A stretch of 64,000 bases of DNA from Saccharothrix algeriensis (GTDB taxonomy: Bacteria > Actinomycetota > Actinomycetes > Mycobacteriales > Pseudonocardiaceae), in the NCBI RefSeq assembly GCF_016907655.1, contig NZ_JAFBCL010000001.1, positions 6,172,001 to 6,236,000 on the forward strand, given 5' to 3'. Under the pieces are notes generated by a model. That model worked only from the letters and a program-made list of their open reading frames with translations, was not told where the DNA came from and did no database searches. Shown here one piece after another: positions 2,610 to 20,762 of this stretch (within the stretch, counting starts at the first letter, position 1; each line of letters starts with the position of its first letter). A program made the translations under genes and the position numbers.

Positions 2610-2745
2610 GGCGTCCCGGGCCCGCCGTGCGGCGGGAACGGGCGTCGACGGCGCGGGGGCGCGCCGGTGAACAGTCGGGACCGGGCGGCTGACCGGTGGG
2701 CGGCGGACCTTGTGCGGGCGGGGGGCTGCTTGCAGCATCGCCCTC

Positions 2746-3684: not shown

Positions 3685-3810
3685 TCCCGGGCCGGCCCGG
3701 ACGCGCCCGGCGGCGGTCGGCGCGCCCGGGCCGCAGGCGTCCCGGGCCCCGCGCGGCGGACGCCGTGGCGGGTCGGCTCATGCGGAGCACGGGCCCGCGC
3801 CGGCGTTCCG

Positions 3811-4460: not shown

Positions 4461-4960
4461 GCCGGGGAAACCGGTCACGTGCGGGGACTCGTGGCGGACG
4501 ATCGCGACGAAACCGGGCGCCGCGGTGGACGACTCCACCACCACCCGCCGCTGCGCCACCGGCGCGGCGACCGCGGCCACCACGACCGCGACCGCGGCGG
4601 TCACGGCCCACCAGCGCCCGGCCGCCGCGCGCGGCCCGTCCCCCCGGCCGTCGAGCCGTCGCCGCAGGAAGGCCGCGACCAGCACCGCGACCGCCCCACC
4701 GCCAGCACCGCCGGACCCGGGCCGGTGATCCCCGAGCGGGTCTCCACCACGAACCAGTACAGGACGTAGCCGGTCATCAGCACGGCCAGCGTGCGCTGCC
4801 CCCCGATCCAGCGCACCAGCACGAAGAAGGCCACCACCGCCACCACCGCGGCGACGGTGAAGATCGTCCAGCCCGCCTCCTCCCGTCCCGCGCCGTCCCC
4901 CGGCACCAGGGCCACCGCCGCGCACAGCCACCCGGCCGCGACGAGCACCACCACGATCAT
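4458..4960 (-). pseudogene. Small polytopic membrane protein, frameshifted
   Basis: It starts at an ATG (4960-4958) behind GGAGG at 4970-4966 and encodes MIVVVLVAAGWLCAAVAL, then two further hydrophobic segments including FTVAAVVAVVAFFVLVRWI. Near 4690-4700 the coding frame switches: the following segments AVAVLVAAFLRRRLDGRGD and AVTAAVAVVVAAVAAPVA lie in a different frame that runs to a stop at 4460-4458. The span is 503 bp, not a multiple of three, consistent with one indel. The repaired product would be about 167 residues with four or five membrane helices and no recognisable family. It lies tail to tail with the heme oxygenase pseudogene, so either the stretch is decaying or the base calls here are poor. 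Confidence 0.5.
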
Positions 4961-5188
4961 CGGAACCTCCCCGCCCACCTCGACGCGCCTCCGTCCGCCC
5001 CGGTTTCGGCCCTCACCCGACCGGAGCAACACCCGGCGCCGCCGGGGGCGGTCCGCCGACCGGTTATGTCCTTTGTGGACTGCGCAGTCGGTGCGGTGCG
5101 AGCGGTCTCCGCGCTACTCGACGGGAGCCGGGAGGCCCGGTGACGCGCCGAGCGGAAACCGGGGTGCGGGTGACCGGCGAGGTGGTGT

Positions 5189-6067: not shown

Positions 6068-6110
6068 GCGCCGGCGGGCCGCGCGGTACCGGCTTGCTCG
6101 GACAACACCG

Positions 6111-6156
6111 CGGTGGTCACCCGCGACGACGAACCCGTCGTCGCGGGTGACCACCG
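6111..6156. terminator. Bidirectional hairpin terminator, 21-bp perfect stem
   Basis: Arms 6111-6131 and 6136-6156 are perfectly complementary around the loop AACC. It lies between the forward acetyltransferase (stop 6067) and the reverse secreted protein (stop 6290), so it can serve both directions. Confidence 0.85.
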
Positions 6157-6289
6157 GAATCGACTTCCCCGACAACCGGCTGCGCCGTGCCGGGAATGCG
6201 GCCCGGGGTCGGAAATCGACCAGTGGTGGAAACGTCCTACCCTTTGCCGCCGGAATGCGTCGACGTAATTCGGGTCGACGCTCGGAGTG

Positions 6290-6664
6290 CTAGACCACGC
6301 GCAGGTAGAGCTTGACGACCTTGCCGCTGTGGCTCTTGTCGAAGCTCACCCGCTTGCCGTTGCCCCCCGCGCGAACGGTGCCGAAACTCGCACCGTCCCC
6401 CCACGCGCCGTACACCTCGGCGGCCTTGCCGTCCGCCTTGGTGTCCTTCACCCAGCCCTGCGCCCGGACCCGACCGCCACCGCAGGTGATGGTCCAGCCG
6501 GCCGCGCCGCCCCTGACCGAGGGGTCGTAGGTGTCCCCGCAGGTGCCCTGGATGACGATCACCCCCGGGTCGGGTGCCGCCGCCGCGGCGGTCCCCGCCA
6601 TCGCGCTCGCGACCGCCAGCCCCGTCAACCCCGCGACGAGCCCTGCCCTTGCCGTCTTCCGCAT
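6290..6664 (-). CDS. Small secreted protein of unknown function
   Basis: 124 residues. The ATG at 6664 is preceded by GAGGGGGA; the open frame continues upstream to 6805, but only the shorter form begins with a proper signal peptide (MRKTARAGLVAGLTGLAVAS, cleaved near AGTAAAAA). The mature part of about 95 residues holds two cysteines (in GTCGDTYD and ITCGGGRV) likely to form one disulphide, is rich in Gly and Lys, and ends KVVKLYLRVV. The size suggests a small all-beta secreted protein. No enzyme motif is visible and I do not recognise the family. Confidence 0.7.
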   Translation of the reverse strand: MRKTARAGLVAGLTGLAVASAMAGTAAAAAPDPGVIVIQGTCGDTYDPSVRGGAAGWTITCGGGRVRAQGWVKDTKADGKAAEVYGAWGDGASFGTVRAGGNGKRVSFDKSHSGKVVKLYLRVV

Positions 6665-7075
6665 TGTTGTTCCCCCTCTTCGGTCACGGCCCCCGCTGGT
6701 TTCCGGAGACCGCTCGGACCCAGGATGGGCCCGCTGTGCGCCGCTGCGGGGAGAAATCGTCGAAGTGCCGCCGGAAAGCCGTGTCGGAGCCGCCACGAGG
6801 ACCACCGCCCAAGTGCGGAACAGAGCATTTCCGCCGCGCAGGCTGGAATATCCGCGCAGACCGGAACGCCGGCCACCGGCCCGGGTCGCGCGGTGCCGTC
6901 CGACGCCGCATTCCGGAGGAATTCACCCTGCGCGGCGGCATGGGCATCACGCGCTCGTGGGGTGGTTGTCCCTCGAACAGGTCGGAGTCGTCGGTGGCGG
7001 GCGCCCGGCGGGTAGCTCCGGGGGAGGGAGCTGTCCATGCCGCGCTCCCGAGCCACCACGGAACGGAGATTCACC
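6665..7075. other. Divergent intergenic region, 411 bp
   Basis: It separates the reverse secreted protein from the forward 39-residue peptide gene and must hold both promoters. Beyond the ribosome site GGAACGGAG at 7060-7068 before the peptide gene I find no convincing -35/-10 pair, long repeat or further small gene. Confidence 0.4.
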
Positions 7076-7195
7076 ATGGGTTTCACCGACGTGTTCAGCG
7101 ACGACGACGATGACGACCGCCTGACGCTGACCGCCGACGAGCAGGAGCTGCTGGCCGGGATCGAGGACGGGCAACCGCAGGCCGCCCCGCGGTAG
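7076..7195 (+). CDS. 39-residue acidic peptide, candidate RiPP precursor
   Basis: An ATG behind AACGGAG encodes a 39-residue peptide that begins MGFTDVFS, continues with six Asp in a row, then RLTLTADEQELLAGIEDG and a short tail QPQAAPR. The middle should form an amphipathic helix, as RiPP leaders often do. A gene for a YcaO enzyme begins 85 bp downstream on the same strand. Unlike azole-forming precursors, the C-terminus has no Cys, Ser or Thr, so standard heterocyclisation of a C-terminal core is unlikely. Thr/Ser occur only in the first half. That it is the YcaO substrate is inferred from size, acidity and position; it could instead be a small partner protein. Confidence 0.65.
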   Translation: MGFTDVFSDDDDDDRLTLTADEQELLAGIEDGQPQAAPR

Positions 7196-7202
7196 TCCGG
7201 GA

Positions 7203-7236
7203 GCGGGTGGGGGGTCTCACGCGGCCCTCCACCCGC
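7203..7236 (+). terminator. Hairpin between the small peptide gene and the YcaO gene
   Basis: Arms 7203-7214 and 7225-7236 give a 12-bp GC stem with one G-U pair and a 10-nt loop, 7 bp after the peptide stop. Inferred role: partial termination or mRNA stabilisation that favours peptide over enzyme. Confidence 0.5.
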
Positions 7237-7280
7237 GCCACCGGGCACCGGGCCAGCGCACCGCCGTCGGAGGGACCGCC

Positions 7281-8546
7281 ATGTCGCACGTCGTGATCGA
7301 CACCGAGGCCGAGCGCGCGGGCGCGCGGTCCGGCGAGCGGGCCGTGGACCTCGCCCGCGCCTGGTCGCACGGCAACCGGGCGCTCGCCGAACTCGGGCTG
7401 ACCGCCCACCTGACCCCCGTGCCGCCCGGCGACCCGGGCGCGTGGCGGTGCGTCCTGCGCCGCGACGGCGAACCCGTCGTCGGGGGCGACGGCTCCGGCA
7501 AGGGCGCCTCCCCCGCGGCGCGGGTCGGCGCGCTGTTCGAGGCGTTGGAGCACCACCTCAGCAGGGACCTGCCGGCCGACGGGGTGCGGGTGCTCGGCGC
7601 GCACGAGGCCGCCGACGGCCTGGCCGGCGACGCCGCGTTCGCGGTGCTCGCCGCGGGACCGGACCGCCCGCTGGCGTGCCTGCCCTACCGCGACCTGCTC
7701 GACGGCTCCGAGCGCGCTCTGCCGGTGTTCCTGTCCGCGCCCGACCACCTCAGGCGCGACCGCGCCGCGCAGCGGGCCGCGCTCGGCGACACCTACGACT
7801 ACTCCGCGGCCCGCCGCTACTCCCTCAACAGCGGTTGGGCCGCCGGCACCACCCCGGTCGAGGCGGCGGTGCACGCGATCAACGAGATCATCGAGCGCGA
7901 CGCGATGTCGCTGCTGCTCGTCGAGCGCTTCCTGGTCCGCCGGCCCGCGCCGCTGCGCGTGACCCGCCCCGACACCCTGCCCGACGACCTGGCCGCGCTG
8001 CACCGCCGGGCCGAGGACCTGCTCGGGCAGCCGGTGCACCTGGTCGACATGACCACCGACCTCGGCGTGCCCGCCTACTGGGCCCACACCGCCGCGCCGG
8101 CCGGCCGGCCCGCGCGGGTGCGCGGGTGCGGGGCGTCGCTGTCGGCCCGCTACGCCGCCGAGCGCGCGCTGACCGAGCTGGTCCAGATCCACAGCATCGC
8201 CACCCACGAGGCCGACCCCCGCGCCGGGCGCGTCCCGCGCACCACCGCCCACCCGGCGCTGCACCGCTGCTACCTGGCCGACCTGACCGCGCCGGGGAGG
8301 GTCCGGCCCGTCGCCTTCGCCGACACCGACGCCCCCGCCACACCGCAGGACCACCTCGACGCCCTGCTGCGCCTGCTCGACCGGGCCGGCTACCGCGCCT
8401 GGGCCTGGCAGCGGCACGTCACCGACCACCTGGCCGTGCTCAACACCTGCGTCCCCGGGATGGAGCGCTTCATGCTCGTCACCGACGGGGCGCTGGTCCT
8501 GCCCGGTCGGCGCGGCCTGGACCACCGGGCGGCGGCGTCGTCCTGA
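7281..8546 (+). CDS. YcaO-domain enzyme (ATP-dependent peptide backbone modification)
   Basis: 421 residues, ATG behind GGAGGG. It carries the YcaO ATP-binding signatures: GKGASPAARVGALFEALEHH at 74-93 and NSGWAAGTT...NEIIERDA at 183-208, then ERALTELVQ, which fits the conserved E/Q motif. YcaO proteins activate backbone amides with ATP to make azolines, thioamides or amidines. No ThiF/E1-like leader-binding partner, dehydrogenase or TfuA is encoded nearby, and the C-terminus lacks the PxPxP end typical of azoline-forming YcaOs. It is therefore a stand-alone type, more like amidine- or thioamide-associated forms or a housekeeping form. The 39-residue peptide upstream is the obvious candidate substrate. 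YcaO assignment is firm; the chemistry is not determined. Confidence 0.88.
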   Translation: MSHVVIDTEAERAGARSGERAVDLARAWSHGNRALAELGLTAHLTPVPPGDPGAWRCVLRRDGEPVVGGDGSGKGASPAARVGALFEALEHHLSRDLPADGVRVLGAHEAADGLAGDAAFAVLAAGPDRPLACLPYRDLLDGSERALPVFLSAPDHLRRDRAAQRAALGDTYDYSAARRYSLNSGWAAGTTPVEAAVHAINEIIERDAMSLLLVERFLVRRPAPLRVTRPDTLPDDLAALHRRAEDLLGQPVHLVDMTTDLGVPAYWAHTAAPAGRPARVRGCGASLSARYAAERALTELVQIHSIATHEADPRAGRVPRTTAHPALHRCYLADLTAPGRVRPVAFADTDAPATPQDHLDALLRLLDRAGYRAWAWQRHVTDHLAVLNTCVPGMERFMLVTDGALVLPGRRGLDHRAAASS

Positions 8547-8612
8547 CGGGCGGGACCGGGCCGGCCCCGGCGGCGCGGTCGCCGGGGGAGCGCGCCGCCG
8601 ACCCGGCCCGGG

Positions 8613-9500
8613 TCAGCGCCGCAGCCGGGTGAGGTCGAGGTGGGGCAGGCGGTCGGGGTCGGACAGGACGTCGATCCCGGCGATCCGCTCCTCGACGACG
8701 GTGAAGCGCATGATCGAGAACAGCTCGCCGTCGACGGTGTTGACCAGCCCGGCCACGCCGTCGACCAGCGCGGGGCGGGTGGCGCAGCGGGTGGCCATGC
8801 GCCGGAAGGTGGCCAACTGCCCGGCCACGGCCGCGGCGCCGCGCAGGACCCGCACCCCGCCGGGGAGCGCCCTGCCGCCGTCGACGCGCAGCGCGACGTC
8901 GGGGTCGAGCAGCGCCAGCAGGGCGTCGAGGTCGCCGCCGCGGGCGGCGGCCAGGAAGGCGTCGACGACGCGGCGGTGGGCGGCGGGTGCGGGCCGGGTG
9001 GCGGGCGGCGCGCCCCGGACGCGCAGGCGGGCCCGGCTGGCGAGCTTCCTGGCCGCGGCCGGCGTGCGGTCCAGGACGGGGGCGACCTGCTCGAAGGGCA
9101 TCCCGAACAGGTCGTGCAGGACGAACGCCAGCCGTTCGGCGGGGGTGAGCGATTCCAGCACCACCAGCAGCGCCAGGCCCACCGAGTCCGCGACCAGCGC
9201 CTGCCGCTCGGGGTCGGCGACCTCGTCGGTGACGACCGGGTCGGGCAGCCGGTCGTCGAGCGGGTCCTCCCGGCGCTGCCGGCGCGCGCGCAGCACGTCC
9301 AGGCAGACCCGGCTGACGACCGTGGTCAGCCAGCCGCCGAGGTTGTCGATGTCCCCGGCCTCGGAGCGGGCCAGCCGCAGCCAGGTCTCCTGGACGGCGT
9401 CGTCGGCCTCCGCCCGCGTGCCGAGCAGCCGGTGGGCCACCGCTCCCAGGTGCTCGCGGTGCTGCTCGAAGCGCCGGGCCAGGAAATCGCTGTCGTTCAC
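8613..9500 (-). CDS. sigJ: ECF41-family RNA polymerase sigma factor
   Basis: 295 residues from the GTG at 9500 (ribosome site GAGGTGACC). Sigma-2 lies at about 8-75 (RRFEQHREHLGAVAHRLLGT, DDAVQETWLRL), sigma-4 at about 118-165 (SLTPAERLAFVLHDLFGMPF), and a SnoaL-like C-terminal domain at about 175-290. The linker RLPDP, DGGRA and DPDRL correspond to the ECF41 signatures WLPEP, DGGGK and NPDKL. In ECF41 factors the fused C-terminal domain replaces a separate anti-sigma factor and sets activity. The gene diverges from an AhpD-like gene, the classic ECF41 target arrangement, and both have matching promoters in the shared 160 bp. The symbol follows common usage for this class; the inducing signal is unknown. 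Confidence 0.9.
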   Translation of the reverse strand: MNDSDFLARRFEQHREHLGAVAHRLLGTRAEADDAVQETWLRLARSEAGDIDNLGGWLTTVVSRVCLDVLRARRQRREDPLDDRLPDPVVTDEVADPERQALVADSVGLALLVVLESLTPAERLAFVLHDLFGMPFEQVAPVLDRTPAAARKLASRARLRVRGAPPATRPAPAAHRRVVDAFLAAARGGDLDALLALLDPDVALRVDGGRALPGGVRVLRGAAAVAGQLATFRRMATRCATRPALVDGVAGLVNTVDGELFSIMRFTVVEERIAGIDVLSDPDRLPHLDLTRLRR

Positions 9501-9528
9501 GGTCACCTCTCGGGTCGGCGGTCGAATG

Positions 9529-9558
9529 GTTGACGAACGGGACGCCCGGGATGTGACC
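9529..9558 (-). promoter_or_regulatory. ECF41-type promoter of the sigma factor gene
   Basis: On the reverse strand GGTCACAT (9558-9551), 15 nt and CGTCAAC (9535-9529) match the ECF41 consensus TGTCACA-N15-17-CGTC. About 28 bp separate it from the sigma gene GTG. It implies autoregulation. Confidence 0.75.
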
Positions 9559-9592
9559 GGTAGCCCGGCCCGGCGGGTCCGCGGCGGCCGGC

Positions 9593-9622
9593 GGTCACAT
9601 CCGCGGCCCGCCACGCGTCAAC
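9593..9622 (+). promoter_or_regulatory. ECF41-type promoter of the AhpD-like gene
   Basis: GGTCACAT (9593-9600), 15 nt and CGTCAAC (9616-9622): identical in sequence and spacing to the opposing sigma factor promoter. The ATG follows 38 bp after the -10 box. Confidence 0.78.
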
Positions 9623-9660
9623 GCGGTGTCCACAGCGGAAACCGGAGAGGACCACACCCC

Positions 9661-10155
9661 ATGACCGCCACGCAGCACAACTCCCGATCGCGCCTGCCCG
9701 ACCCGACCGCGCTCGTCCCCGAGCTGGGGCAGGTCGCCGGTGCCCTGTTCAAGGCCACCGGCAACGGCTCGATCCCGCGGACCACCGTCGGCCTGGTGCA
9801 GCTGCGCGCCGGGCAGGTCGTCGGCAACACCTACCTGACCACCCTGCACTCCGGCAACCTGCGCAAGGCGGGCGAAACCGAGGAGCGCATCACCGCGGTC
9901 GCGTCCTGGCGGGACGCGCCCCACTTCAGCGAGCCCGAACGGGTCGCGCTGGCGCTGGTGGAAGCCGTGCTGACCCCCAACCCGCACGGCGAACGGGTCC
10001 CCGACGAGCTGTACGCCCGGGCATCGGCCCACTACGAGGACAAGGCGCTCGTCACGCTCATCACGGCGATCGGCCAGGTCTGCTTCTTCCTCCCCCTGGC
10101 CCTGATCGGCAAGCCACTCCCGGGTGTGCCGCCCACGCGGCAGTGGCGCGACTGA
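9661..10155 (+). CDS. Carboxymuconolactone decarboxylase/AhpD-like protein lacking the CxxC pair
   Basis: 164 residues. The helical CMD/AhpD core is recognisable: residues 52-70, QVVGNTYLTTLHSGNLRKA, align with the AhpD motif QVNGCAYCxxxHSxxLRKAGE, followed by GETEERI. Both catalytic cysteines are replaced (Asn56 and Leu59) while His63 is kept. A thiol peroxidase or disulphide reaction is therefore not expected, and the protein may have a binding role or different chemistry. It diverges from the ECF41 sigma factor, whose usual target is a CMD or oxidoreductase gene, and has a matching promoter. A hydrophobic stretch (VCFFLPLALIG) lies near the C-terminus. Family assignment is good; activity is unknown. 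Confidence 0.82.
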   Translation: MTATQHNSRSRLPDPTALVPELGQVAGALFKATGNGSIPRTTVGLVQLRAGQVVGNTYLTTLHSGNLRKAGETEERITAVASWRDAPHFSEPERVALALVEAVLTPNPHGERVPDELYARASAHYEDKALVTLITAIGQVCFFLPLALIGKPLPGVPPTRQWRD

Positions 10156-10323
10156 CGCCCGACGTGCCGGCTCGGCGGGCGGCCCGGGACCGCCGGCCGG
10201 GGCCGGTTGCGGTGCGGGGGAGGGGACCGGGCGCCGCGCGGGTCGGGCGGGCGCGGTCGGTGCCCCGCCCGCCGTCGCGCGGGGAACCGCTGCGGCGCCG
10301 TGGGGTTGCCGATTCCCCTTGTG

Positions 10324-11088
10324 TCACACGGGGGACGGGGCCAGGTCGTCGGCCGCGGCCCAGGCGGCGAGCTTCGGTCGCAGGATGCGGTAGAAGTCCG
10401 GGTGCAGGCCCATCGCGGTGTGGCTGCTGCGGATCTCGACGCACTCGGCGCTGGGGTCCTGGCACAGCTCCCACGGCGCGACGCGGTCGAGGCGGGAGGC
10501 GAAGGCCAGGGCGGGCACGGAGGGCGGCAGCTCCGCGGCGAGGGAGGCCGTGTTGGTGTGGTAGCAGGGGCCGGTGAAGCAGTCCTCGTCGAGCAGGCCG
10601 GGCACGCCGAGGGCGGACAGCCGCGTCAGCGCCCTCGCGGCCCGGACCACCCGGGGGCTGACGCCGAGCGGGTCCAGCACCGGGGAGCCGAGCGTCACCA
10701 GGCCCCGGACCAGGTCCGGCCGGCGCGCGGCGGCCAGCCGGCCGAGCCAGCCGCCGCGGCTCTGCCCCAGGACGACCACCCGTCGCCCGGTGCGCTCGAC
10801 GTGCTCTTCGAGCCGCCGTTCGATGCGGTCGACCAGCTCGCTCGTGCAGCCCACGTTGAGCCCGATCCGAGCCGGCGCGGGCCGGTACCCCCGCGCCCGC
10901 AGCCACGCCGAGGCCAGGACGAGGCTGCGGTCGCCGAACCCGAAACCGGGGACGAGCAGCACCCCGAGGCCGCCGCCCTCGTCCGGGGTCCGGTGCCGCC
11001 AGCCGGAATCGCGCAGCAGGCGGGGGACCATGCTCAGCATCACGAGCAGCGTCTGCTCGGTCTCGGCGGCCCGTTTCAGCGCTCGCAT
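10324..11088 (-). CDS. Alpha/beta hydrolase (lipase/esterase-like)
   Basis: 254 residues from the ATG at 11088 behind AGGAGG. The oxyanion region is VLLVPGFGFGD near residue 40, the nucleophile elbow GQSRGG near residue 110 (Ser112), a candidate acid lies in ASRLDRVAP and the candidate His in SSHTAMGLH near the C-terminus. There is no signal peptide, so it should be cytoplasmic. It resembles actinobacterial triacylglycerol-lipase-like hydrolases used in acyl-ester turnover. It is monocistronic and convergent with the AhpD-like gene. Substrate unknown. Confidence 0.82.
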   Translation of the reverse strand: MRALKRAAETEQTLLVMLSMVPRLLRDSGWRHRTPDEGGGLGVLLVPGFGFGDRSLVLASAWLRARGYRPAPARIGLNVGCTSELVDRIERRLEEHVERTGRRVVVLGQSRGGWLGRLAAARRPDLVRGLVTLGSPVLDPLGVSPRVVRAARALTRLSALGVPGLLDEDCFTGPCYHTNTASLAAELPPSVPALAFASRLDRVAPWELCQDPSAECVEIRSSHTAMGLHPDFYRILRPKLAAWAAADDLAPSPV

Positions 11089-11432
11089 GGCTCCTCCTGT
11101 CCACCGGCAGCCGGTGACCCGATCCCCTTCGGCGTACCCCTCCCGGCCGGCGGCAAACGGGCCGGCCGGCGGCGCCCCGTCGGCGCGGCGCGGCCCCGAC
11201 GGCCGGCACGAGGTCGGCCGTCGGGTTCGCGATTTCGTCCACAGAGGACTGACCTGGGCTGCTCCCGTTGCCCGGCAAGGAGACTGTGGTGTCGTGATGG
11301 GGACGACCACGTCGACGGGACAGACCGGGAGCCGGGCGCGCGGTGGTGGTGCGGGCGGGTTCGGCCCGTCGAACCGCTGCGCGCCCGGCCGTGACCGGAC
11401 ACCGCCCGGTCACGGCCCCGTGGCTGCGGCGG
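11089..11432. other. Intergenic region, 344 bp
   Basis: Upstream of the reverse alpha/beta hydrolase and downstream of the reverse secreted protein. It contains the hairpin at 11387-11417; otherwise I see only GC-rich sequence with no supported gene. Confidence 0.4.
11387..11417 (-). terminator. Hairpin terminator after the small secreted protein gene
   Basis: Perfect 12-bp arms (11387-11398 and 11406-11417) with a 7-nt loop, 15 bp downstream of the reverse-strand stop at 11433. Confidence 0.75.
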
Positions 11433-11861
11433 TCACCACCAGGTGGTGGAGTTGTCCGCGGTGCAGTACCCGTTCGGGTCGGCCACGTAGCACGCCCGGA
11501 AGGCGCGGTTCGGGCTCGAACTCGTCGGGTAAGCCTGCGTGTAGTTGCGGCTGCCCGCCGTGTAGGTCGAGAAGTCGTCCGCCACCCGGTCGCCGTCGAG
11601 GTCGACCTCGAAGCGGATGAACTCCGGCCCGGTGTGGTCGAGGATCCGCCCCCAGCCGTGCTGCACGCCGCCGCAGTTGCCGTGGCGCACCTGCACGACC
11701 CGGCCGCCGACCGACCGCTGCACCGCCGTGAGCGGGTTGGAGCAGGTGGCCGGGTCGCTCACCCACGGGGCGGCGGCCGAGGCCGAGGCGGTCCCGGCGG
11801 CCAGTGCGGTGGTCGCGGCGGCGATCGTCAGGACGGCCGCCGCCTTCGTCGTCTTCTTCAC
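11433..11861 (-). CDS. Small secreted protein, four cysteines, unknown function
   Basis: 142 residues from the GTG at 11861; the open frame runs further upstream, but this start gives a clean signal peptide (VKKTTKAAAVLTIAAATTAL, cleaved near ASASAA). The mature part has four cysteines (in ATCSNP, GNCGG, RACYV and GYCTA), probably two disulphides, and an acidic VDLDGDRVADD stretch that could bind calcium. It ends TTWW. No enzyme motif is seen. A hairpin terminator follows. Not recognised as a named family. Confidence 0.7.
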   Translation of the reverse strand: MKKTTKAAAVLTIAAATTALAAGTASASAAAPWVSDPATCSNPLTAVQRSVGGRVVQVRHGNCGGVQHGWGRILDHTGPEFIRFEVDLDGDRVADDFSTYTAGSRNYTQAYPTSSSPNRAFRACYVADPNGYCTADNSTTWW

Positions 11862-12197
11862 GGTTCTCCCCCTTGTCCCCGGTTCAGCGGACGCGCTCGG
11901 CACTCCGGCCCGGGTGTTCGCGGGCCGCGGTGGGACTCCGCCCGGTCGACCCGGGTGGGGTCTCGGCCGAGGGTGCGGGGGAGCCACCGGGTGGTGCCCC
12001 CTGCGACCTCGGTGTGCCGGCACGGCTCGGTGTCGTCACTCCCCGCCGACACGAGCGCCTCGCCGTCCGTACTCATAGTCCCACCCCAGGTGGGGGTAGG
12101 CATTAAGCCCTTCGGGTGAATAGGCAAGGATCAACTTGCGCAGCGTCACCCCCTGCGGTGCGCGGCGCCGCCGCCCCGGCGCGGGGCGGTTCACCGC
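11862..12197. other. Intergenic region, 336 bp
   Basis: Upstream of the reverse secreted protein and downstream of the reverse serine hydrolase. It has a local AT-richer patch near 12080-12130 that may hold the promoter of the secreted protein gene, but I cannot assign -35/-10 boxes. Confidence 0.35.
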
Positions 12198-13184
12198 CTA
12201 GCGGCCCTCCTGCCCGGTCAGCCGGGCGAGCAGGGCGAACCCGTGCCGGTCCACCGGGGCGGCCGTCGCGGACAGCAGGACGACGCCCGCGCCTGCGGCG
12301 CGGTCGAGGCCGAGCCAGCTGCGGAACCCGCCGGTGCCGCCGTTGTGCCAGGTGATGAGCCGGCCGCGGTGTTCGAGGGTGATCCAGGCGGCGCCGATGC
12401 GCACCACCCGCCCGGTGAAGTCGGCGACGGGGTCCAGGGCACTGACACCGGGCGCGGAGCGGTCGAGCAGCGCGGCGGTGAGGCGGGCCATGTCCCCGAT
12501 CGTCGCGCGCATCCCGCCGGCCGGTCCCAGCGCCTCGCCGGTCCAGGGCGGGCGTGCGCGCCCCGATCGGGTGGCGCCGACCAGCGCGCCGGGGCGCAGC
12601 TCGTCCGGGGTCGAGGGCACGTGGAGCGCGTCGAGGCCGAGGGGAGCGGCGATCCGGTCGCGGACCAGGTCCCGGAAGCTCGTGCCGGCGGCGGCGGCGA
12701 GCGCGTGGCCGAGGAGCTCGAACCCGAAGTTGGAGTACCGGGGGCGGGGCCGCTTGAGCCGCACGCCGCGCGCCTGGGCGATGAGCTGGTCGAGCGTCTC
12801 GCCGTAGGGGTTGGCGCCGGTCAGCCACAGCGCGAGGCTCCGCCGCAGGGGAGCGGCCGACGCGGGCAGGCCCGGCAGCCCCGAGCGGTGGGTGCTGATC
12901 GCGGAGAGCGCCAGGCCCGCCGCCGGCGCCGCGCCCAGCGGCAGCAGCGAGCCGAGGGTGGTCGCCGGGCCGATCTCCCCGCGTTCGAGCGCGTCGGCGT
13001 ACAGCAGGCCGGTCACCCCCTTCGAGATCGAGCCGATCTCGAAGTCCGCGTCGAGCGGCGCGCCCACTGCCGCCACCGCCGCCCCGCGGGGCGAGAGCGT
13101 GGCGGCGGCGACCACCGGGTGCCGGGAACCCATGCGCTCCACCAGTTCCCCCGCGAGCGCCTCGTCGCCCCGGACTTCCCTCAC
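12198..13184 (-). CDS. Serine hydrolase of the beta-lactamase/penicillin-binding-protein family
   Basis: 328 residues from the GTG at 13184; a start at 13133 (MGSRHPVV) is also possible because no strong ribosome site marks either. The class C beta-lactamase fold is indicated by SISK (nucleophile Ser, general base Lys) within FEIGSISKGVTGLLYADAL, the tyrosine motif YSN in RYSNFGFELLG, and WHNGGTGGFRS as the KTG equivalent. There is no export signal or lipobox, so it is probably cytoplasmic and more likely an esterase or D-aminopeptidase-like enzyme than a resistance lactamase. A HALAAAAGTSFRDLV helix is typical. Substrate unknown. Confidence 0.85.
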   Translation of the reverse strand: MREVRGDEALAGELVERMGSRHPVVAAATLSPRGAAVAAVGAPLDADFEIGSISKGVTGLLYADALERGEIGPATTLGSLLPLGAAPAAGLALSAISTHRSGLPGLPASAAPLRRSLALWLTGANPYGETLDQLIAQARGVRLKRPRPRYSNFGFELLGHALAAAAGTSFRDLVRDRIAAPLGLDALHVPSTPDELRPGALVGATRSGRARPPWTGEALGPAGGMRATIGDMARLTAALLDRSAPGVSALDPVADFTGRVVRIGAAWITLEHRGRLITWHNGGTGGFRSWLGLDRAAGAGVVLLSATAAPVDRHGFALLARLTGQEGR

Positions 13185-13374: not shown

Positions 13375-14163
13375 TCAGGCCGAAGGGTCCTTGAAGCGCA
13401 CGTACCACCCCCTGTGCGTGAAGAGGTCCCGGAACCGGGGGTTGTCGGTGAGGCCGCTGCCGCAGCAGGCGTAGTGGACCTTCGTGTGCCCGGCCTGGGC
13501 GGCGTTCACGACCAGGGCGCTCAGCGTCGTGGGCCGGTCGACGGTGATCGAGGTGCTCTCGACGTTCAGCCCGTCCGGCTTCTGGACGGTGTAGTTGATC
13601 ACCTGTTCGCCGGCGCGGTACGTCCTGGGGTAGCCCGGCGGCAGGGGCTGGACCTGGTTGCTGTCCGAGTGCTTCATCTCCAGGTCGTCCGCCGACAGGG
13701 ACGTGAGCTGCTCGACCCGGTTGGCCGGGCGGTCGTCGAAGTAGGCGCCGGGCGGCGCGTACATGATCACCTCCATCCCGTCCGGGACGGTGAAGGTCGC
13801 GGCCTTCCGGCGGCTGTTCGGGGCCTCGGGGTCGAGGTGGTTCTCGTTGAACGCGCCGTGGCCCGCGACCACCGCGCCGAACTCGCGCTGCCGGTCCTGC
13901 GCCGACTGCTCCGCCGGCCTGTCCTGCTCCAGGCCGGGGTAAGGCTCGTCCAGGTCCATGTCCGAGGGAGGCGGGGACAGGGTGGAGATCGAGCTGGCGG
14001 GGCTGGCCCGCTGCACGTTCGCCAGCATCCCGCTCACCGCGCGGTTGCCGACCTGCCGCTGGAGGTCCAGCAGGTTCTGCAGCGGGGACGCCGGAGCGGG
14101 CGCGGCGTGCCCGTGGGCCTCCTCCTGCTCGGGTGCGTTGCCGGCGGGGGTGCGCGAGCGCAC
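13375..14163 (-). CDS. Protein with eCIS-type N-terminal motif, putative injected or secreted effector
   Basis: 262 residues from the GTG at 14163 (AGGAG upstream). Residues 34-52, LQRQVGNRAVSGMLANVQR, match the LQRxxGNxAVxxLLxxxQR motif shared by proteins encoded with actinobacterial extracellular contractile injection systems and DUF4157 proteins. A disordered Pro/Ser linker follows. The C-terminal domain (about 95-262) has GHGAFNENHL, TFTVPDGMEVIMYAPPGAYF and a late YACCGSG; the first two resemble the Stv-type putative adhesin/effector domain, a tentative match. There is no signal peptide. No sheath, tube or baseplate genes occur here, so this would be an orphan cargo. It lies 215 bp downstream of the radical SAM locus on the same strand. 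Confidence 0.6.
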   Translation of the reverse strand: MRSRTPAGNAPEQEEAHGHAAPAPASPLQNLLDLQRQVGNRAVSGMLANVQRASPASSISTLSPPPSDMDLDEPYPGLEQDRPAEQSAQDRQREFGAVVAGHGAFNENHLDPEAPNSRRKAATFTVPDGMEVIMYAPPGAYFDDRPANRVEQLTSLSADDLEMKHSDSNQVQPLPPGYPRTYRAGEQVINYTVQKPDGLNVESTSITVDRPTTLSALVVNAAQAGHTKVHYACCGSGLTDNPRFRDLFTHRGWYVRFKDPSA

Positions 14164-14378: not shown

Positions 14379-15722
14379 TCAGGCGTTGCGCGGCTGCTCG
14401 CGCGCCGGGCCCGGGCGGGCGTCGGCGGCCCCGGCGACCGCCGTGCCGTCCCGCACCCGCAGGACGCAGCAGCCGGCGACGACGCAGAGCAGCCCGGCGA
14501 CGGTGAAGATCGCGTCGATCGGGCCCATCCGCAGCCCCAGCGCCGAGATCTCCGCGGACCTGGTGAGCAGCGAGCCGGCCAGGCCGATCGAGACGACCAG
14601 CGAGAGCAGGGACGCGGTCTGGCTGGTGGTGTTCACCAGCGAGTAGACCCGGCTCAGCTCGGACCGGCGCACCAGGCCGACCAGCAGCGGCACGAAGACC
14701 GCGTTGGCCGCGCCGAGCGCCGCTCCGATCCCGCAGGCGACGAGCAGGGCCGGGGTGACCGCGGTCAGCCGCGCGTAGCCGACGACCAGCAGCCCCAGCG
14801 CGAGCAGGCTCGCGCCGTACACCCGCCAGTGGCCGACCCGGTCGCCCAGCCGGCCGGCCGGCAGGCCGCCGGCGACCGCGCCGAGCGCGAGGGCGCTCTC
14901 GACGGCGCCGAACCACACGCCGTCGGCGTGCAGGTTGTACTGCACGAAGTAGACCATCAGCGCGGTCATCGCACTGGTCGCGAGGCCGGCCAGGCCGATC
15001 GCGGCCAGCAGGCCGCTGAGCGCGCGGCTGCCGAAGGCGGCCCGCAACCCGCCGACCAGCCGGTCGCGGAACCGGTCGCGGGCCTCCCGCTCGCCGCCGG
15101 CCGCCGGCGCCGCGGTCCGGAGGGAGCGGACGGCCAACCAGGACAGCAGGAACGTCGCCGCGTCGACCAGCAGCGTCGCGGCCATGCCGATGCCGAACAC
15201 GAGCAGGGCGGCCAGCGCGGGCGCGCAGATGCTCAGCACCGCGTAGGTGGTCTGGTTGTAGCCCGAGGCCCGGCCCAACCGGTCGGGCGGGACCACGTCG
15301 CGGAGCAGGACGATCCGCGCGGGGGCGTGGAACTGCGCCGCCGCCGAGGACACCACGATCACCCCGAACCCGAGCCAGAGCCGGGCGTCGACGCCCAGCC
15401 GCTCGGGCGGGGCCAGCAGGGCGAGGCCGAACAACCCGGTGACCACGCCGCGAACGGCGTCGGCGCACAGCATCACCCGCCGCTCGTCCCAGCGGTCCAC
15501 CAGGACACCGGCCACGGGCGCCACCACCAGCGACACCGCGGTCGCGGTCAGGAGCATCGCCCCGCTGACCACCGGGGCCTGCGGCCGGCCGCCCAGCAGC
15601 AGCACGCCCACCCACAGCAGCAGCGCGGTGTCGGAGACCAGGTCGCCGAACTGCGACGCCGAGTGGGCGAACCAGAGCCGGGTGAACTCCCGGTTGACCA
15701 GGACGGGGAGGCGGCTACCCAC
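14379..15722 (-). CDS. MFS transporter, probable exporter of the radical SAM RiPP
   Basis: 447 residues with about 12 hydrophobic helices. The N-terminus VNREFTRLWFAHSASQFGD is typical of the EntS/MdtH-like MFS branch. The conserved loop after helix 2 appears as GVLVDRWDERRVM and the central loop is charged (GEREARDRFRDRL). It is an inner-membrane, proton-driven exporter by family. The GTG at 15722 overlaps the radical SAM stop by 8 bp, so the two genes are translationally coupled, which is the main reason to assign it to product export or self-immunity. The substrate is inferred from context only. Confidence 0.88.
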   Translation of the reverse strand: MGSRLPVLVNREFTRLWFAHSASQFGDLVSDTALLLWVGVLLLGGRPQAPVVSGAMLLTATAVSLVVAPVAGVLVDRWDERRVMLCADAVRGVVTGLFGLALLAPPERLGVDARLWLGFGVIVVSSAAAQFHAPARIVLLRDVVPPDRLGRASGYNQTTYAVLSICAPALAALLVFGIGMAATLLVDAATFLLSWLAVRSLRTAAPAAGGEREARDRFRDRLVGGLRAAFGSRALSGLLAAIGLAGLATSAMTALMVYFVQYNLHADGVWFGAVESALALGAVAGGLPAGRLGDRVGHWRVYGASLLALGLLVVGYARLTAVTPALLVACGIGAALGAANAVFVPLLVGLVRRSELSRVYSLVNTTSQTASLLSLVVSIGLAGSLLTRSAEISALGLRMGPIDAIFTVAGLLCVVAGCCVLRVRDGTAVAGAADARPGPAREQPRNA

Positions 15723-17088
15723 GCCCGCCGGCCGGTTCGCCGCCTGCGGTGAGCCCGTTCATCCGGGCGACCAGGTCCAGCCGCTCCTGCAGGGTGAACT
15801 TCATCGGCGGGCACGGCACGTTGCCCTCGCGCCACTGCTTGGGGCACGCGCCGCCGCACACCGGCATGATCGGGCAGCCGTGGCAGGGCGTCTCACCCGC
15901 CGCGATGGCGTCGTGCCAGTCGTCGAACGGGCCGACCGGGCGGCGCTGGGCCGGCACCAGCTCGCCGACCCGGCCGAGGCCGCCGGTCGCCTCGTGCCGG
16001 GGCACGAGCGGGTGCTCCGAGCAGGAGAACACGGCCCCGGTGCTGCTGATGATCTCGGCGGACCTGGTCACCGCCGCGCACAGCTGGGTGACCGGCTCGA
16101 AGGGCAGGGCGACGAACTGCAACCCGTGCCGGCGCATCCGCTCCATCCAGGCGACCTCGCGCAGCGCGTACTCCCGGCGCGGGATCTCCCGCGCGCTGAC
16201 GTCGTTGCCCCAGGGGTACACCGGGGCGAGGTTGAAGTTGACCCGGTCGTCGGCGAAGCCGTGCTCCGCCATCAGGTCGATGTACTCGTCGACCCACTCG
16301 GAGTTCAGCACGTCGATGTTGGTCCGCAGCGTGAAGACCACTTCGTGCAGCGCCGGGTCGTCCAGCGCCGCCCGGACCGTCGCGACGATGCGGTCGAAGG
16401 AGCGCCCGCCCTGCTTGAGCGGCCGGTGCCGGTCGTGGACGCGCGGCGGGCCGTCGAGGGTGATGTCGTACTCCACGACCCGGCACTCGTCCAGGAGCAC
16501 GCGCAGCCGCTCGCCGGTCAGCAGCGTCCCGTTGGTCACCATGCGGGCGTGGTAGCCGACGCCGTTCTCCTCGGCCGACCGGATGAACGCCTCGCTGAGA
16601 CCGCGGATGGTGGGGTAGCCGAGCATCGGCTCCGCGCCGAACCACCTGATCTTGACGGCGGTGGTCGCGGGCGCCTCGATGGCGGCGAGGACCCGAGCGG
16701 CGACCGCCGCGCGGTGGTCGGGCCCGACGCCGCCGCGGACGTGCTCCTGCCCGCAGTACTCGCAGCCCATGTTGCAGTACCGGCTGGGCAGCAGGACGAA
16801 CCGCGGCTCGCTCAGGTCCGCGCACGCCGAGCGCTGGCGGTCGAGCACGGTCGTGCGCTCGTCCTCGCCGACGCCGACCAGCGCCTCGATCGACCGCAGC
16901 GCGGCCAGGGTCCGCTCGTCGACCTCGTGCAGCCGCCCGGTGAGCAGGCGGTCCGCCACGGCCGCCGGCACGCACCCCGCGGAACCGGTCCTGGTCGAGT
17001 ACAGGACGCGCATCGGTTCACCCGCGGGGTCGCGGTAGGTCCGCTCGCTCAGCACGGCGTAGGAGCTCAACATCTCGACAGGGGACAT
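15715..17088 (-). CDS. Radical SAM/SPASM peptide maturase
   Basis: 457 residues from the ATG at 17088 (ribosome site GGAGGGAA). The radical SAM core has C105-x3-C109-x2-C112 (PSRYCNMGCEYCGQEH), a WFGAEPML motif in place of GGEPL, then TNGTLL and ITLDGPPRVHD. The SPASM domain is complete: C-x13-G-x4-C around AVFSC, then C-x2-C-x5-C-x3-C in CHGCPIMPVCGGACPKQW and a last Cys in NVPC, enough for two auxiliary Fe-S clusters. Such enzymes form thioether, C-C or other crosslinks on ribosomal peptides. The gene lies 71 bp after a 27-residue Gly/Cys peptide gene and overlaps an MFS gene. The exact linkage is unknown. Confidence 0.93.
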   Translation of the reverse strand: MSPVEMLSSYAVLSERTYRDPAGEPMRVLYSTRTGSAGCVPAAVADRLLTGRLHEVDERTLAALRSIEALVGVGEDERTTVLDRQRSACADLSEPRFVLLPSRYCNMGCEYCGQEHVRGGVGPDHRAAVAARVLAAIEAPATTAVKIRWFGAEPMLGYPTIRGLSEAFIRSAEENGVGYHARMVTNGTLLTGERLRVLLDECRVVEYDITLDGPPRVHDRHRPLKQGGRSFDRIVATVRAALDDPALHEVVFTLRTNIDVLNSEWVDEYIDLMAEHGFADDRVNFNLAPVYPWGNDVSAREIPRREYALREVAWMERMRRHGLQFVALPFEPVTQLCAAVTRSAEIISSTGAVFSCSEHPLVPRHEATGGLGRVGELVPAQRRPVGPFDDWHDAIAAGETPCHGCPIMPVCGGACPKQWREGNVPCPPMKFTLQERLDLVARMNGLTAGGEPAGGRG

Positions 17089-17117
17089 GGCCGGTTCCCT
17101 CCGGGGTCGGGGTGGGA

Positions 17118-17152
17118 ACCGGCCGGGGCGGGCGAACGCCGCCCCGGCCGGT
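17118..17152 (-). terminator. Attenuator-like hairpin between precursor peptide and maturase genes
   Basis: Perfect 14-bp arms (17118-17131 and 17139-17152) around a 7-nt loop, starting 7 bp after the peptide stop on the reverse strand. Inferred role: partial termination so that peptide mRNA exceeds enzyme mRNA, as in many RiPP operons. Confidence 0.7.
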
Positions 17153-17159
17153 CGCCGGA

Positions 17160-17243
17160 TCAGCAGCCTCCGCCGCACGTGCCGTTCTTGGGGCCGTTGC
17201 CGCCGAAGTCGGGGTTGCGGTTGGTCGTGCTCAGCAGAACCAT
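17160..17243 (-). CDS. 27-residue Gly/Cys-rich peptide, candidate radical SAM RiPP precursor
   Basis: An ATG (17243-17241) behind a near-perfect AGGAGGT encodes 27 residues: start MVLLSTTNRNPDF, then a Gly/Asn-rich core GGNGPKNG ending TCGGGC-stop. The two cysteines (positions 23 and 27) enclose three glycines at the very C-terminus. The strong ribosome site, immediate position ahead of a radical SAM-SPASM gene, and the hairpin in between make it the likely substrate. The leader is unusually short (10-13 residues), so the maturase would have to recognise very little sequence; no RRE domain protein is seen nearby. Expected chemistry, such as Cys-to-alpha-carbon thioether bonding onto Gly/Asn, is inference. 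Confidence 0.8.
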   Translation of the reverse strand: MVLLSTTNRNPDFGGNGPKNGTCGGGC

Positions 17244-17882
17244 GGGACCTCCTCGTGGATCAGTACCGCCGGCGGGGCGCCGGCGGGGAACCGGACCGGC
17301 TCGTGACCGTCGAGGGCGGCGGCCCGCCCGCGCCGGCGGGGGACGTCCCGGCGGCGAACGGGGCCCGGCCACGAGCCGGTGGGGGACGGCTGTCGAGGCG
17401 TCGCGCCGGTCGGCGCTGCTCGGCGGGTGGCGGCCGAACCGCCGGCCGACCGGCGGACGTCAGGGCAGCGGTGTCGGCGCGCTCACCCGCGGCGCCACTC
17501 GGTGCCGCGGGGTCTGCGCACCGCCCGGCGGCCGGCGGGCCCCGCGCGCCCGCCCGGCGTCGACGGCGCTCCGGGTCCGCCCTGCCTCGACCGTGTCACC
17601 GGCATGTGTCGCTCCACCCCTGTCGTCCGTTCCCGTCGTTCGTCCCCGCGGGGAGCGCGGTGCGCGGGGCGGTACCCCTCGTCGGTCCGACAACCGCCGG
17701 CGCGGCGCGCCCACCCCGGTGCGGTGGTCCGTTCCACCGCACCGACAGCGTGGCCGCCCGCTTCCACCCGTTAACACGACGTTCTGCGAATCCCCTGTTC
17801 AGTGGTGCCGCGCGGGGCGGCGGCGGGCCTAGACAGGAGTCCTCCACGGCGCCCCGGGCCCACCGGGGGGAGGGGCTGGGTG
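17244..17882. other. Divergent intergenic region, 639 bp
   Basis: Lies between the reverse RiPP precursor and the forward SARP gene. It must hold both promoters. It is AT-richer near 17760-17800 (GTTAACACGACGTTCTG). I find no clear heptamer direct repeats of the SARP type and no further gene I can support. Confidence 0.4.
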
Positions 17883-20762
17883 ATGGCGGCGGAGCTGCGG
17901 GTGCTGGGCGAGGTCGAGGTCCTGGCCGACGGGGCGCGGGTGGAGCTCGGGCACGCCCGGCAGCGGTGCGTGCTGGCGGCGCTGCTGGTCCAGGCCAACC
18001 AGGTGGTCGCCACCGGTCGGCTGGTGGACCGGGTCTGGGGCGAGCACCCGCCCCGGCGGGCCCGGCAGCTGGTCAGCAACTACCTGTCCCTCCTGCGCGC
18101 CCTGCTGGCCGCCGGCGGTGTCGCGGGGGAGGTGGCCATCCAGCGGCGCGCCGGCGGCTACGTCCTGCTGGTCGACCCCGACCGCGTCGACCTGCACCGG
18201 TTCCGCCGCCTGGTCGCCGAGGCCCGCGCCGACCCCGACCCGGCCCGCGCGCTGGAGCTGCTGGAGCGGGCCGCGGGGACGTGGCGGGGCGAGGCGCTGG
18301 CCGGCCTGGACACCCCGTGGACCGCCGCGGTGCGCCAGGAGCTGGAGCGCGAGCGGTTCGCCGCGGACACCGACCGCCTCGACCGGGCGCTGCGGGCCGG
18401 GCGGCACGTCGCGCTGCTGCCCGAGCTGACCGCCCGCGCCGCCGCGCACCCGCTGGACGAGCACGTGGCCGCGCAGCTCATGCTCGCCCTCTACCGCGCG
18501 GGCCGCCAGGCCGACGCCCTGGACCACCACCGGCGGCTGCGCGCCCGGCTGGCCGACGAGCTGGGCGCCGACCCCGGACCGGACCTGCGGCGCCTCCACC
18601 AGCGCATCCTGGCCGCGGACCCCGCCCTGGCCGCCCCCGCGGCGGGACCGGGCCGGCCGGTGGCGACGCCCCGCCAGCTGCCGGCCGCGCCCGCGGTGTT
18701 CACCGGCCGCGCCCGCGAACTGGCCGAGCTGGACCGCGCCCTGCCCGCCGCCGCGCCGCCCCCCGCCGGCGAGGGCCCGGGGCCGGGCGCGGCCGGGGTG
18801 GTGGTCTCGGTGATCGGCGGCGCGGGCGGGGTCGGCAAGACCTGGTTGGCGCTGGTCTGGGCGCACCGCAACCTGCACCGCTTCCCCGACGGGCAGCTGT
18901 TCGTCGACCTGCGCGGTTTCAGCCCCGCCGGGCGGCCGACCGAGCCGGTCGACGCCGTGCGCGGGTTCCTCGCCGCCCTCGGCGCGGACCCGGACGCGCT
19001 GCCGGCGGACCTGAACGCCCTGGCCGCCCTGTACCGCAGCCTGGTCGCGGGCAGGCGGGTGCTGGTGGTGCTGGACAACGCCGCGACCGCCGAGCAGGTC
19101 GTGCCGCTGCTGCCGGGCAGCGCGTCGTGCGCCGTGCTGGTCACCGGCCGCGTGGTGCTGCCCTCCCTGATCGACCGGCACGGCGCCCGGCACCTGTCGC
19201 TGGGCGCGCTCTCCCGCGAGGAGTCCCGCGCGCTGCTGGCGCGTCGGCTCGGGGGCCGGCGGGTCGGGGCCGACCCGGGGGTGGTCGAGGAGTTGATCGG
19301 CCTGTGCGGGCGGCACCCGCTGGCGTTGGCGATCACCGCCCGGCACGCCGCCACCCGGCCGGGCATCCCGCTGGCGGAGTTCGCCGCGGAGCTGCGGGAA
19401 CCGGGCCTGGCGGCGCTGGACCACGACACCGATCCCGCGGCCAGCCTGCCCGCGGTGCTGTCCTGGTCCCTGCGCCGCCTCACCGAGGAGCAGCGGACGG
19501 TGTTCGCGCTGCTCGGCACCACCCCCGGCCCGGACGCCGACCTGCCCGCCGCCGCGTCGCTCACCGGCCTGCCCGAGGCGCGGGCGCGCCGGGTCCTGCG
19601 CGTGCTGGAGGACCACTCGCTGCTCGACCGGCGCCCGCACGGGCGCTACGCCATGCACGACCTGGTCCGCGCCTACGCCGCCACCCTCGCCCGCGACCTC
19701 CCGGAGCCGGTGCGGCGGGCCGCCCTGGAGCGGGTGGTCGACTTCTACCGGCACACCGCGCACACCGCCGACCACCTGCTGTACGCGCTGCGCCCGGTGG
19801 TCCGGCTCGCCCCTCCCGCCCCCGGCTCCCGCCCGCTGCCGCTGCCCGACCAGCGGGCCGCGCTGGCCTGGCTGGACGCCCACCACCCCCACCTGCTGGC
19901 CGCCCAGCACATCGCCGCGGGCCACCGCCACCACGAGGCCGTGTGGCACCTGGCCTGGACGCTGAACACCTTCCACCTGCGCCGCGGGCACCGCCAGGAC
20001 GAGCTGGCCGTGTGGCGGGCCGCCGTCGACGCCGCCGAGCACCTGCCCGACCCCGCCGCCCTCATCCACGCCCGCCGGCGCCTCGGCCACGCCCACGCCG
20101 AGCTGGGGCGGCACGAGGAGGCCGTCGCGCACCTGCACCACGCCCTCGCCGTGGCCGAGCACCACGACGTCCCCGTCCAGCAGGCCCGGACCCACCACGC
20201 CCTCGCGTGGGCCTGGGAGCAGCGCGCGGACCACCGGCAGGCCCTGGAGCACGCCCGCCGCGCCCTGGACCTCTACCGCGGCCTGGACCAGCCGGTGTGG
20301 GAAGCCGACGCGCTCAACACGGTGGGCTGGCACGAAGCCCACCTGGGCGAGTACGACACCGCCCGCGACCACTGCCGGGCCGCCCTCGCCCTGCACCGGC
20401 GGCACCAGGACTCCGACGGCGTGGCCGACGACCTGGACAGCCTGGGCTTCATCGACCACCGCACCGGCCGCCACCAGCGGGCCGTCGACCACTACCGGCA
20501 GGCCCTGGACCTCTACCGCGATGTCGGCAACACGACCGAGGCCGTCGACACCCTCGACTACCTCGGCCACCCCTACGCCGCTCTCGGCCAGCACACCCGG
20601 GCGCGCGCCGCCTGGCAGGAGGCCCTGGACCTGTACCGGCGACTGGGCCGCGACACCGACGCCGAGCGCGTCCGGAAGCAGCTCGACGACCTGGACGCGG
20701 CGCAGGAGCCCGTCGGGTCGCCGACCCCGTCCGCCCGGCCCCTCGACGCCGGCTGCCGGTGA
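17883..20762 (+). CDS. SARP-family regulator with NB-ARC and TPR domains (AfsR-like)
   Basis: 959 residues from the ATG at 17883 (a GTG lies directly before it at 17880; GGGGAGGGG upstream). Residues 1-90 are an OmpR-type winged helix (LRVLGEVEVLADG, LVDRVWGEHPPRRARQLVSN). About 95-245 is the bacterial transcriptional activator domain. About 280-560 is an NB-ARC ATPase with P-loop GGAGGVGKTW and Walker B RVLVVLDNA. The C-terminal 350 residues are TPR-like helical repeats (for example the repeated ALDLYR motifs). SARPs activate natural-product operons by binding direct repeats; the ATPase and TPR part is a signal-dependent switch. The divergent position beside the radical SAM peptide operon suggests it controls that operon, which is inference. 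Confidence 0.92.
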   Translation: MAAELRVLGEVEVLADGARVELGHARQRCVLAALLVQANQVVATGRLVDRVWGEHPPRRARQLVSNYLSLLRALLAAGGVAGEVAIQRRAGGYVLLVDPDRVDLHRFRRLVAEARADPDPARALELLERAAGTWRGEALAGLDTPWTAAVRQELERERFAADTDRLDRALRAGRHVALLPELTARAAAHPLDEHVAAQLMLALYRAGRQADALDHHRRLRARLADELGADPGPDLRRLHQRILAADPALAAPAAGPGRPVATPRQLPAAPAVFTGRARELAELDRALPAAAPPPAGEGPGPGAAGVVVSVIGGAGGVGKTWLALVWAHRNLHRFPDGQLFVDLRGFSPAGRPTEPVDAVRGFLAALGADPDALPADLNALAALYRSLVAGRRVLVVLDNAATAEQVVPLLPGSASCAVLVTGRVVLPSLIDRHGARHLSLGALSREESRALLARRLGGRRVGADPGVVEELIGLCGRHPLALAITARHAATRPGIPLAEFAAELREPGLAALDHDTDPAASLPAVLSWSLRRLTEEQRTVFALLGTTPGPDADLPAAASLTGLPEARARRVLRVLEDHSLLDRRPHGRYAMHDLVRAYAATLARDLPEPVRRAALERVVDFYRHTAHTADHLLYALRPVVRLAPPAPGSRPLPLPDQRAALAWLDAHHPHLLAAQHIAAGHRHHEAVWHLAWTLNTFHLRRGHRQDELAVWRAAVDAAEHLPDPAALIHARRRLGHAHAELGRHEEAVAHLHHALAVAEHHDVPVQQARTHHALAWAWEQRADHRQALEHARRALDLYRGLDQPVWEADALNTVGWHEAHLGEYDTARDHCRAALALHRRHQDSDGVADDLDSLGFIDHRTGRHQRAVDHYRQALDLYRDVGNTTEAVDTLDYLGHPYAALGQHTRARAAWQEALDLYRRLGRDTDAERVRKQLDDLDAAQEPVGSPTPSARPLDAGCR

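Follow-up and report, generated by a model that had tools for sequence, protein, structure and literature searches.

Among the described radical S-adenosylmethionine (SAM) systems, the closest counterpart of the one analyzed here is NxxcA from Streptococcus orisratti, in which NxxcB is reported to link Cys23 to the β-carbon of Asn20 within an N-x-x-C motif (PMC8326336, PMC13361665). We analyzed a stretch of 64,000 nucleotides from Saccharothrix algeriensis (contig NZ_JAFBCL010000001.1, positions 6,172,001 to 6,236,000; hereafter the window), which harbors a compact operon for a 27-residue peptide, a radical SAM/SPASM maturase and a major facilitator superfamily (MFS) protein. The window operon shares with the streptococcal NxxC RaS-RiPPs, which are ranthipeptides, both the N-x-x-C core that characterizes these peptides (NGTC in the window) and a SPASM radical SAM enzyme, and even the numbering of Asn20 and Cys23, the latter by coincidence. 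It differs from NxxcA/NxxcB in its actinomycete host, its short leader, a second Cys within NxxCGxxC and its MFS gene, and the likeness is one of motif. Since N-x-x-C is the motif of NxxcA and is joined there by NxxcB, an Asn20-Cys23 thioether is the most likely modification expected of the window enzyme by analogy, and on balance we consider it probable that the operon product is a small exported peptide carrying such a ring. PapB/freyrasin and the SCIFF ranthipeptides resemble the window in their non-alpha thioether chemistry and in weak profile matches, but they differ in the spacing between Cys and acceptor. In PapB this spacing is CxxxD. AviCys-type peptides differ in that an HFCD flavoprotein decarboxylase belongs to their clusters; none was found in the window by tblastn with three HFCD queries.

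The operon lies on the minus strand and comprises the following elements:

17248 to 17253, minus strand: ribosome-binding site AGGAGG, separated from the precursor ATG by four bases (read from the sequence)
17160 to 17243, minus strand: precursor peptide gene, 27 aa, MVLLSTTNRNPDFGGNGPKNGTCGGGC (read from the sequence; short precursors in four relatives)
17118 to 17152, minus strand: RNA hairpin with a stem of 15 bp and without a T-run, located after the precursor stop and ahead of the maturase gene (computed fold)
15715 to 17088, minus strand: radical SAM/SPASM peptide maturase, 457 aa (PF04055, conserved Cys residues, clade in the tree)
14379 to 15722, minus strand: MFS transporter, 447 aa, overlapping the maturase gene by 8 bp (PF07690/PF05977)

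The precursor frame starts with the ATG at 17243 and its stop codon ends at 17160; the Cys residues of the product stand in two consecutive units, N20-G-T-C23 and G24-G-G-C27. A gap of 71 bases containing the hairpin separates it from the maturase gene. A preliminary description of this DNA had proposed a radical SAM ribosomally synthesized and post-translationally modified peptide (RiPP) cluster made up of a short peptide gene with a strong ribosome site, a full SPASM maturase and an overlapping MFS exporter gene, and each of these elements was borne out, with export itself a prediction.

A frame of 27 codons in GC-rich DNA, enclosed by a larger frame of 70 aa (17160-17372), could have arisen by chance, in which case another protein would serve as the maturase substrate. 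We rejected this explanation, which appears hardly credible given that four relatives encode corresponding peptides in the equivalent position, that the GC content of the frame is 0.50, 0.61 and 0.89 at the three codon positions, and that the background of NxxC-tailed open reading frames (ORFs) amounts to only eight in 947,890 strand-bases in the remainder of the 41 loci considered below, five of these eight being precursor-like themselves (L038, L042, L052, L054 and L059). Of the short ORFs in the window that are preceded by a ribosome site, 77 in all, only two have an [N/D]xxC tail, the precursor and an ORF at 769-999 on the plus strand, and the precursor peptide has a single match in the 6.88-Mb single-contig genome.

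The nearest maturases from other actinomycete genomes are 62% (L136), 56% (L109), 53% (L110) and 51% (L111) identical, and each is preceded by a gene for a peptide of 28-32 residues, namely MIKLSTATPATGVMPLPPEKNGVCGNGC (which begins with GTG, written here as M), MINLVTSTWNSDDFEMANDVKNVGCGSLC, MIKLATSNNATPAATGRGNGVCGAGCATQPN and MLKMKAANTNPENRNRGVNCGCHGGNCSCQVE, respectively. In a maximum-likelihood tree of 45 rows, the five maturases form one clade with support of 100/99, within which the window groups with L136 (99/93). The order precursor, maturase, MFS gene is retained in all five members, the MFS gene lying directly downstream on the same strand and either overlapping or at most about 40 bp away. 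Four of the five peptides begin with M-[IV]-x-L-x-T and terminate in NxxCGxxC. The search for small Gly/Cys frames beside homologous maturases that the preliminary description had put forward as a check thus proved positive, the tails KNVGCGSLC, KNGVCGNGC and GNGVCGAGC standing next to KNGTCGGGC of the window. A short precursor beside a SPASM gene, conserved across genomes, is what defines a radical SAM RiPP operon, and this arrangement was found in five of five clade members; there is thus strong support for assigning the three genes to such an operon, including a transporter of its own.

The maturase contains the CxxxCxxC motif as C105/C109/C112 and further Cys residues at positions 337, 356, 402, 405, 411, 415 and 426, and all ten are invariant across 58 aligned sequences (the window and 57 of the 80 loci kept from the scan described below, near-duplicates and frameshifted rows excluded). 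Its first ~95 residues, in which a fused RiPP recognition element might reside, gave no relevant match in Pfam or PDB sequences. The best model among the NCBIfam matches listed (25 of 42 families) is TIGR04463 (rSAM_vs_C_rich), with 165 bits against a curated cut-off of 525, so that the enzyme falls outside this family as defined. The same model matches all 58 aligned maturases and ranks first for another ten members that were scanned individually (169-201 bits against 525; matches listed up to 1e-35), and none of these 11 singly scanned maturases reached a full-length NCBIfam cut-off among the models listed. Scores against the PapB model (69.8 of 340 bits) and the SCIFF model (39.3 of 425) are likewise below cut-off. 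The window peptide matched no Pfam or NCBIfam model, and the leader domain of NF045560/NF045559 (aroma-sacti/StsA-related) was absent from both the window peptide and the L110 peptide in the NCBIfam search. The placement outside known classes made in the preliminary description hence holds for the peptide models and for the maturase, which remains far below its best cut-off, but not for the motif, which is that of the streptococcal NxxC class.

The maturase is rare among sampled genomes. Counting its own genome, it was found in 10 of 390 genomes of its family at 1e-20, with no other genome of the window's genus among the ten, and in two of 394 genomes drawn evenly from the class at 1e-40. At 1e-60, it occurred in 29 of 354 genomes of the family of a Salinispora genome, in nine of 392 sampled within the genus to which a Streptomyces genome belongs and in six of 250 sampled within the family that includes a Sphaerisporangium genome. 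The relatives of genome G1355 yielded two in 150, both of which had already been found here. Within its own genome, the maturase has one further, weak match of 34% over 149 residues in the radical SAM core. An alignment-based contig scan of 84,980 species retrieved at least 557 maturase relatives, whereas a protein-only contig scan with the maturase had returned none; the best 80 of these were kept and span Actinomycetota, Bacteroidota, Pseudomonadota, planctomycetes and one cyanobacterium. Locus L020, at 27% identity, was taken to represent another family and excluded.

The motif was examined across this wider group by automatic precursor picking at 82 loci, of which 31 were redundant, leaving 51 with maturases less than 85% identical. 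The picking rule was blind to Asn: among upstream ORFs that have a ribosome site and contain a Cys within their last 16 residues, it chose the one whose codon bias was best. In the C-terminal region, 31 of the 38 actinomycete picks have an Asn three residues ahead of a Cys, compared with at most eight at each of 15 other offsets, and shuffling of the last 19 residues over 2000 rounds gave a mean of 5.2 and a maximum of 13. One duplicate slipped past the filter (L125, identical to L050 and a motif miss); without it the count is 31 of 37. Otherwise the peptides vary greatly across the wider family, and Asn-x-x-Cys is kept. It is this NxxC unit, and not the CGGGC or GxGPKNG expected in the preliminary description, that is conserved. 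When NxxC-tailed ORFs were instead counted just upstream of the maturase, they were present at 29 of 41 loci (near-duplicates and near-identical Streptomyces included) as against 0.0033 expected per search window. Loci added later gave such an ORF in five of six cases, with none at L164 and with L163 repeating the L030 precursors, so that not all are independent. Both plasmid records likewise possess one: a Streptomyces plasmid (L158, NZ_CP108437.1), where an unannotated short ORF ending at 2839 with the tail DLNGNC precedes the radical SAM gene, and a Rhizobium etli plasmid, where a 'hypothetical protein' carries NSGC 19 residues before its C-terminus.

At 39 distant loci (L063-L101), a relaxed rule applied without a control found an upstream ORF with NxxC in the last 40 residues at 15. 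In a Spirosoma peptide from Bacteroidota (L067), all six Cys residues have Asn at -3 (NQLC, NSTC, NTSC, NTSC, NGTC and NSNC), and a Runella peptide (L064) contains NVSC, NKGC and NTGC. At L067 and at the Runella loci L064/L065, precursor genes are arranged in tandem 80-620 bp upstream of the maturase and encode several NxxC units each. The N-x-x-C-x-x-x-C spacing of the window recurs in NVACDSGC (L088), NIACDTSC (L082), NIGCNTGC (L094) and NGACDTSC (L093).

Several observations weigh against so uniform a picture. No precursor was picked automatically at 13 of the 51 non-redundant loci, and seven of the 38 picks lack NxxC, comprising three with DxxC (two of them the same locus counted twice), one in a wrong frame (L027, whose proper ORF ends NNNCLC) and three of spurious appearance. 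Of the distant loci, 24 of 39 lack such an ORF, and two of the 15 positives (L090 and L095) look spurious. Within the clade, L111 lacks the shared L-x-T start and carries NCGC and NCSC where the others have NxxCGxxC. Furthermore, at the Kutzneria-type loci L012-L015 and L019, no precursor was recognized upstream and no real-looking [ND]xxC-tailed ORF was found within 18 kb.

These Kutzneria-type loci have a conserved maturase, and a TACGTAGATGTGCGTATAC element stands just upstream of it in five of five. At L090, a 112-aa ORF that appears HU-like by eye ends 110 bp before the maturase, a Roseibium relative; the ORF's tail KVNVC has Asn at -2, not -3.

The recurrence of Asn bears on whether the enzyme makes a thioether at all. 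SPASM enzymes are versatile, and the maturase could epimerize, oxidize or form a C-C bond while the two Cys residues, which are four apart with Gly between them, form a disulfide or bind a metal. However, Asn at -3 recurs while the remaining peptide changes, and neither a free metal site nor a disulfide has need of it; we hold such a chemistry to be distinctly improbable. Our best guess, by analogy, is a thioether on Gly or Asn.

We propose that the maturase would recognize the very short leader (MVLLSTT...) and that a 5'-deoxyadenosyl radical would abstract a hydrogen from Asn20, whereupon the sulfur of Cys23 would bond to this residue. Judging from the motif, the attachment site would most likely be the β-carbon, as in the identical N-x-x-C ring made by NxxcB. 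Cys27 may perhaps be joined likewise to Gly24 three residues earlier, giving a second thioether. Three residues before the second Cys, four of the five clade peptides have Gly, and L088, L082, L094 and L093 have Asp or Asn; the second ring is a speculative proposal drawn from one conserved Gly. The leader would then be cut off by a protease encoded elsewhere, and the product would be exported by the MFS protein, as its position and co-occurrence suggest.

The same operon could also yield a sactipeptide, with sulfur bonded to the α-carbon of Asn20, Gly24 or both. With Gly three residues before the second Cys, only the α-carbon is available for a bond, and a precursor from a sister Streptomyces clade (L022) passes the NCBIfam 'aroma-sacti cluster' domain model with 68.1 bits at a cut-off of 30. 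The L022 precursor stays below the StsA-related sactipeptide cut-off (25.1 of 75), however, the window peptide matches neither model, and in the one N-x-x-C peptide for which we found a structure reported, the bond is to the β-carbon. We consider the sactipeptide reading unlikely and retain the β-carbon thioether at Asn20. A more far-reaching proposal, which we hold to be rather unlikely, would combine both: one enzyme may form two adjacent i-3 rings, Asn20 Cβ-S-Cys23 and Gly24 Cα-S-Cys27, in an almost leaderless mixed ranthi- and sactipeptide, under a family-wide acceptor-x-x-Cys rule with N, D or G as acceptor, and in sister clades the C-terminal ring Cys may be decarboxylated by HFCD to give an AviCys-like ring through radical chemistry and without lanthionine enzymes.

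The sister clade matching NF045560 ('aroma-sacti', mostly Streptomyces) is like the window in its maturase (49-51% identical), in precursors ending in N-x-x-C and in a nearby MFS gene. Unlike the window, it has precursors of 62-68 aa with a C-terminal Cys and an adjoining HFCD flavoprotein, and its neighborhoods include B12 radical SAM enzymes, as tested in L027, and an S8 protease, as tested in L022. Where the precursor terminates in [N/D]xxC-COOH, a PF02441 flavoprotein was found near the maturase at 13 of 18 loci, compared with none of 22 others; the loci are mutually related and not independent, so that the P value overstates the association, and some flanks are short. For this count, L012 and L014 were dropped, L027, L059, L111, L038, L042 and L052 were set by hand and L125 was retained, and the HFCD genes were identified by Pfam in L022 and L040 and by tblastn in the remaining loci. 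Examples of these HFCD-type flavoprotein genes (PF02441) are:

L022, 7362-7958
L149, 8096-8692
L040, 9487-10272

This co-occurrence with [N/D]xxC-COOH precursors suggests, as a lead, a radical route to AviCys-like rings in the sister clades. Decarboxylation of the window peptide itself was considered and rejected, as no HFCD gene is nearby; three PF02441 genes are present in the same genome outside the window. At L027, the region 1304-12245 brings together an NxxC precursor, a maturase, HFCD and MFS genes, a YcaO enzyme, a pair of radical SAM enzymes of the B12-binding type and a protein related to the S8 protease of L022.

The MFS protein is the probable exporter, as predicted from its position and co-occurrence. 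A matching MFS gene is present at 31 of 59 loci with wide flanks (loci L109-L143 have flanks of 1.5 kb only). None was matched in 11 entries, representing eight distinct places (L046, L047, L055, L056, L060-L062 and L153), whose precursors have a leader judged by eye to be signal-peptide-like, which fits an exporter role for the MFS protein, though not strictly; 17 other wide-flank loci without such a leader likewise lack an MFS match, and these speak against it. Precursors with a Sec/Tat-like leader followed by NxxC cores were observed at L055 (5644-5889), L056, L060-L062, L046, L047 and L121.

The stretch containing the hairpin (17095-17165) folds with -47 kcal/mol (z -3.5). The gap between precursor and maturase was more stable than its own shuffles, the sole comparison made, in 26 of 26 folded loci including the window (z -1.6 to -5.5, mean -2.8, below -2 in 19); four picks had been dropped (L012, L014, L027 and L059), and eight of the remaining 34 gaps were too short. 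The intergenic hairpin may set the precursor to maturase ratio and may hold the precursor in excess over the enzyme.

Upstream of the operon lies a divergent gene:

17802 to 20762, plus strand: divergent regulator, ORF of 986 aa (44.6% identical over 931 aa to a gene divergent from the L055 precursors)

Its product, which we take to be BTAD/AfsR-like from its sequence character, is a possible cluster regulator. Within the clade, it has a match in L145 only (1e-6, non-adjacent), and the regulator is thus not a fixed partner. Downstream of the MFS gene, an ORF at 13375-14163 on the minus strand encodes an Stv adhesin domain (PF21527, E 1.3e-16) with an N-terminal LQRQVGNRAV stretch; tblastn of loci L012-L101 with this product gave no match.

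Our literature search, which did not cover most subscription journals, found no description of this maturase/precursor group. The group is genuine and new and, by analogy with the described systems, its chemistry is probably of a known kind; what is new here is the short-leader precursor type and the conserved three-gene operon, with a motif that looks familiar. The analysis defines a compact and testable peptide-enzyme-transporter operon within a large maturase group and offers Asn-x-x-Cys as a unifying substrate rule for that group. The nearly leaderless substrate would be convenient for enzyme work, and the HFCD genes of the sister clades hint at a second biosynthetic way of arriving at AviCys-like rings. 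Should this rule prove correct, it would make predictable many precursor genes below the usual annotation length.

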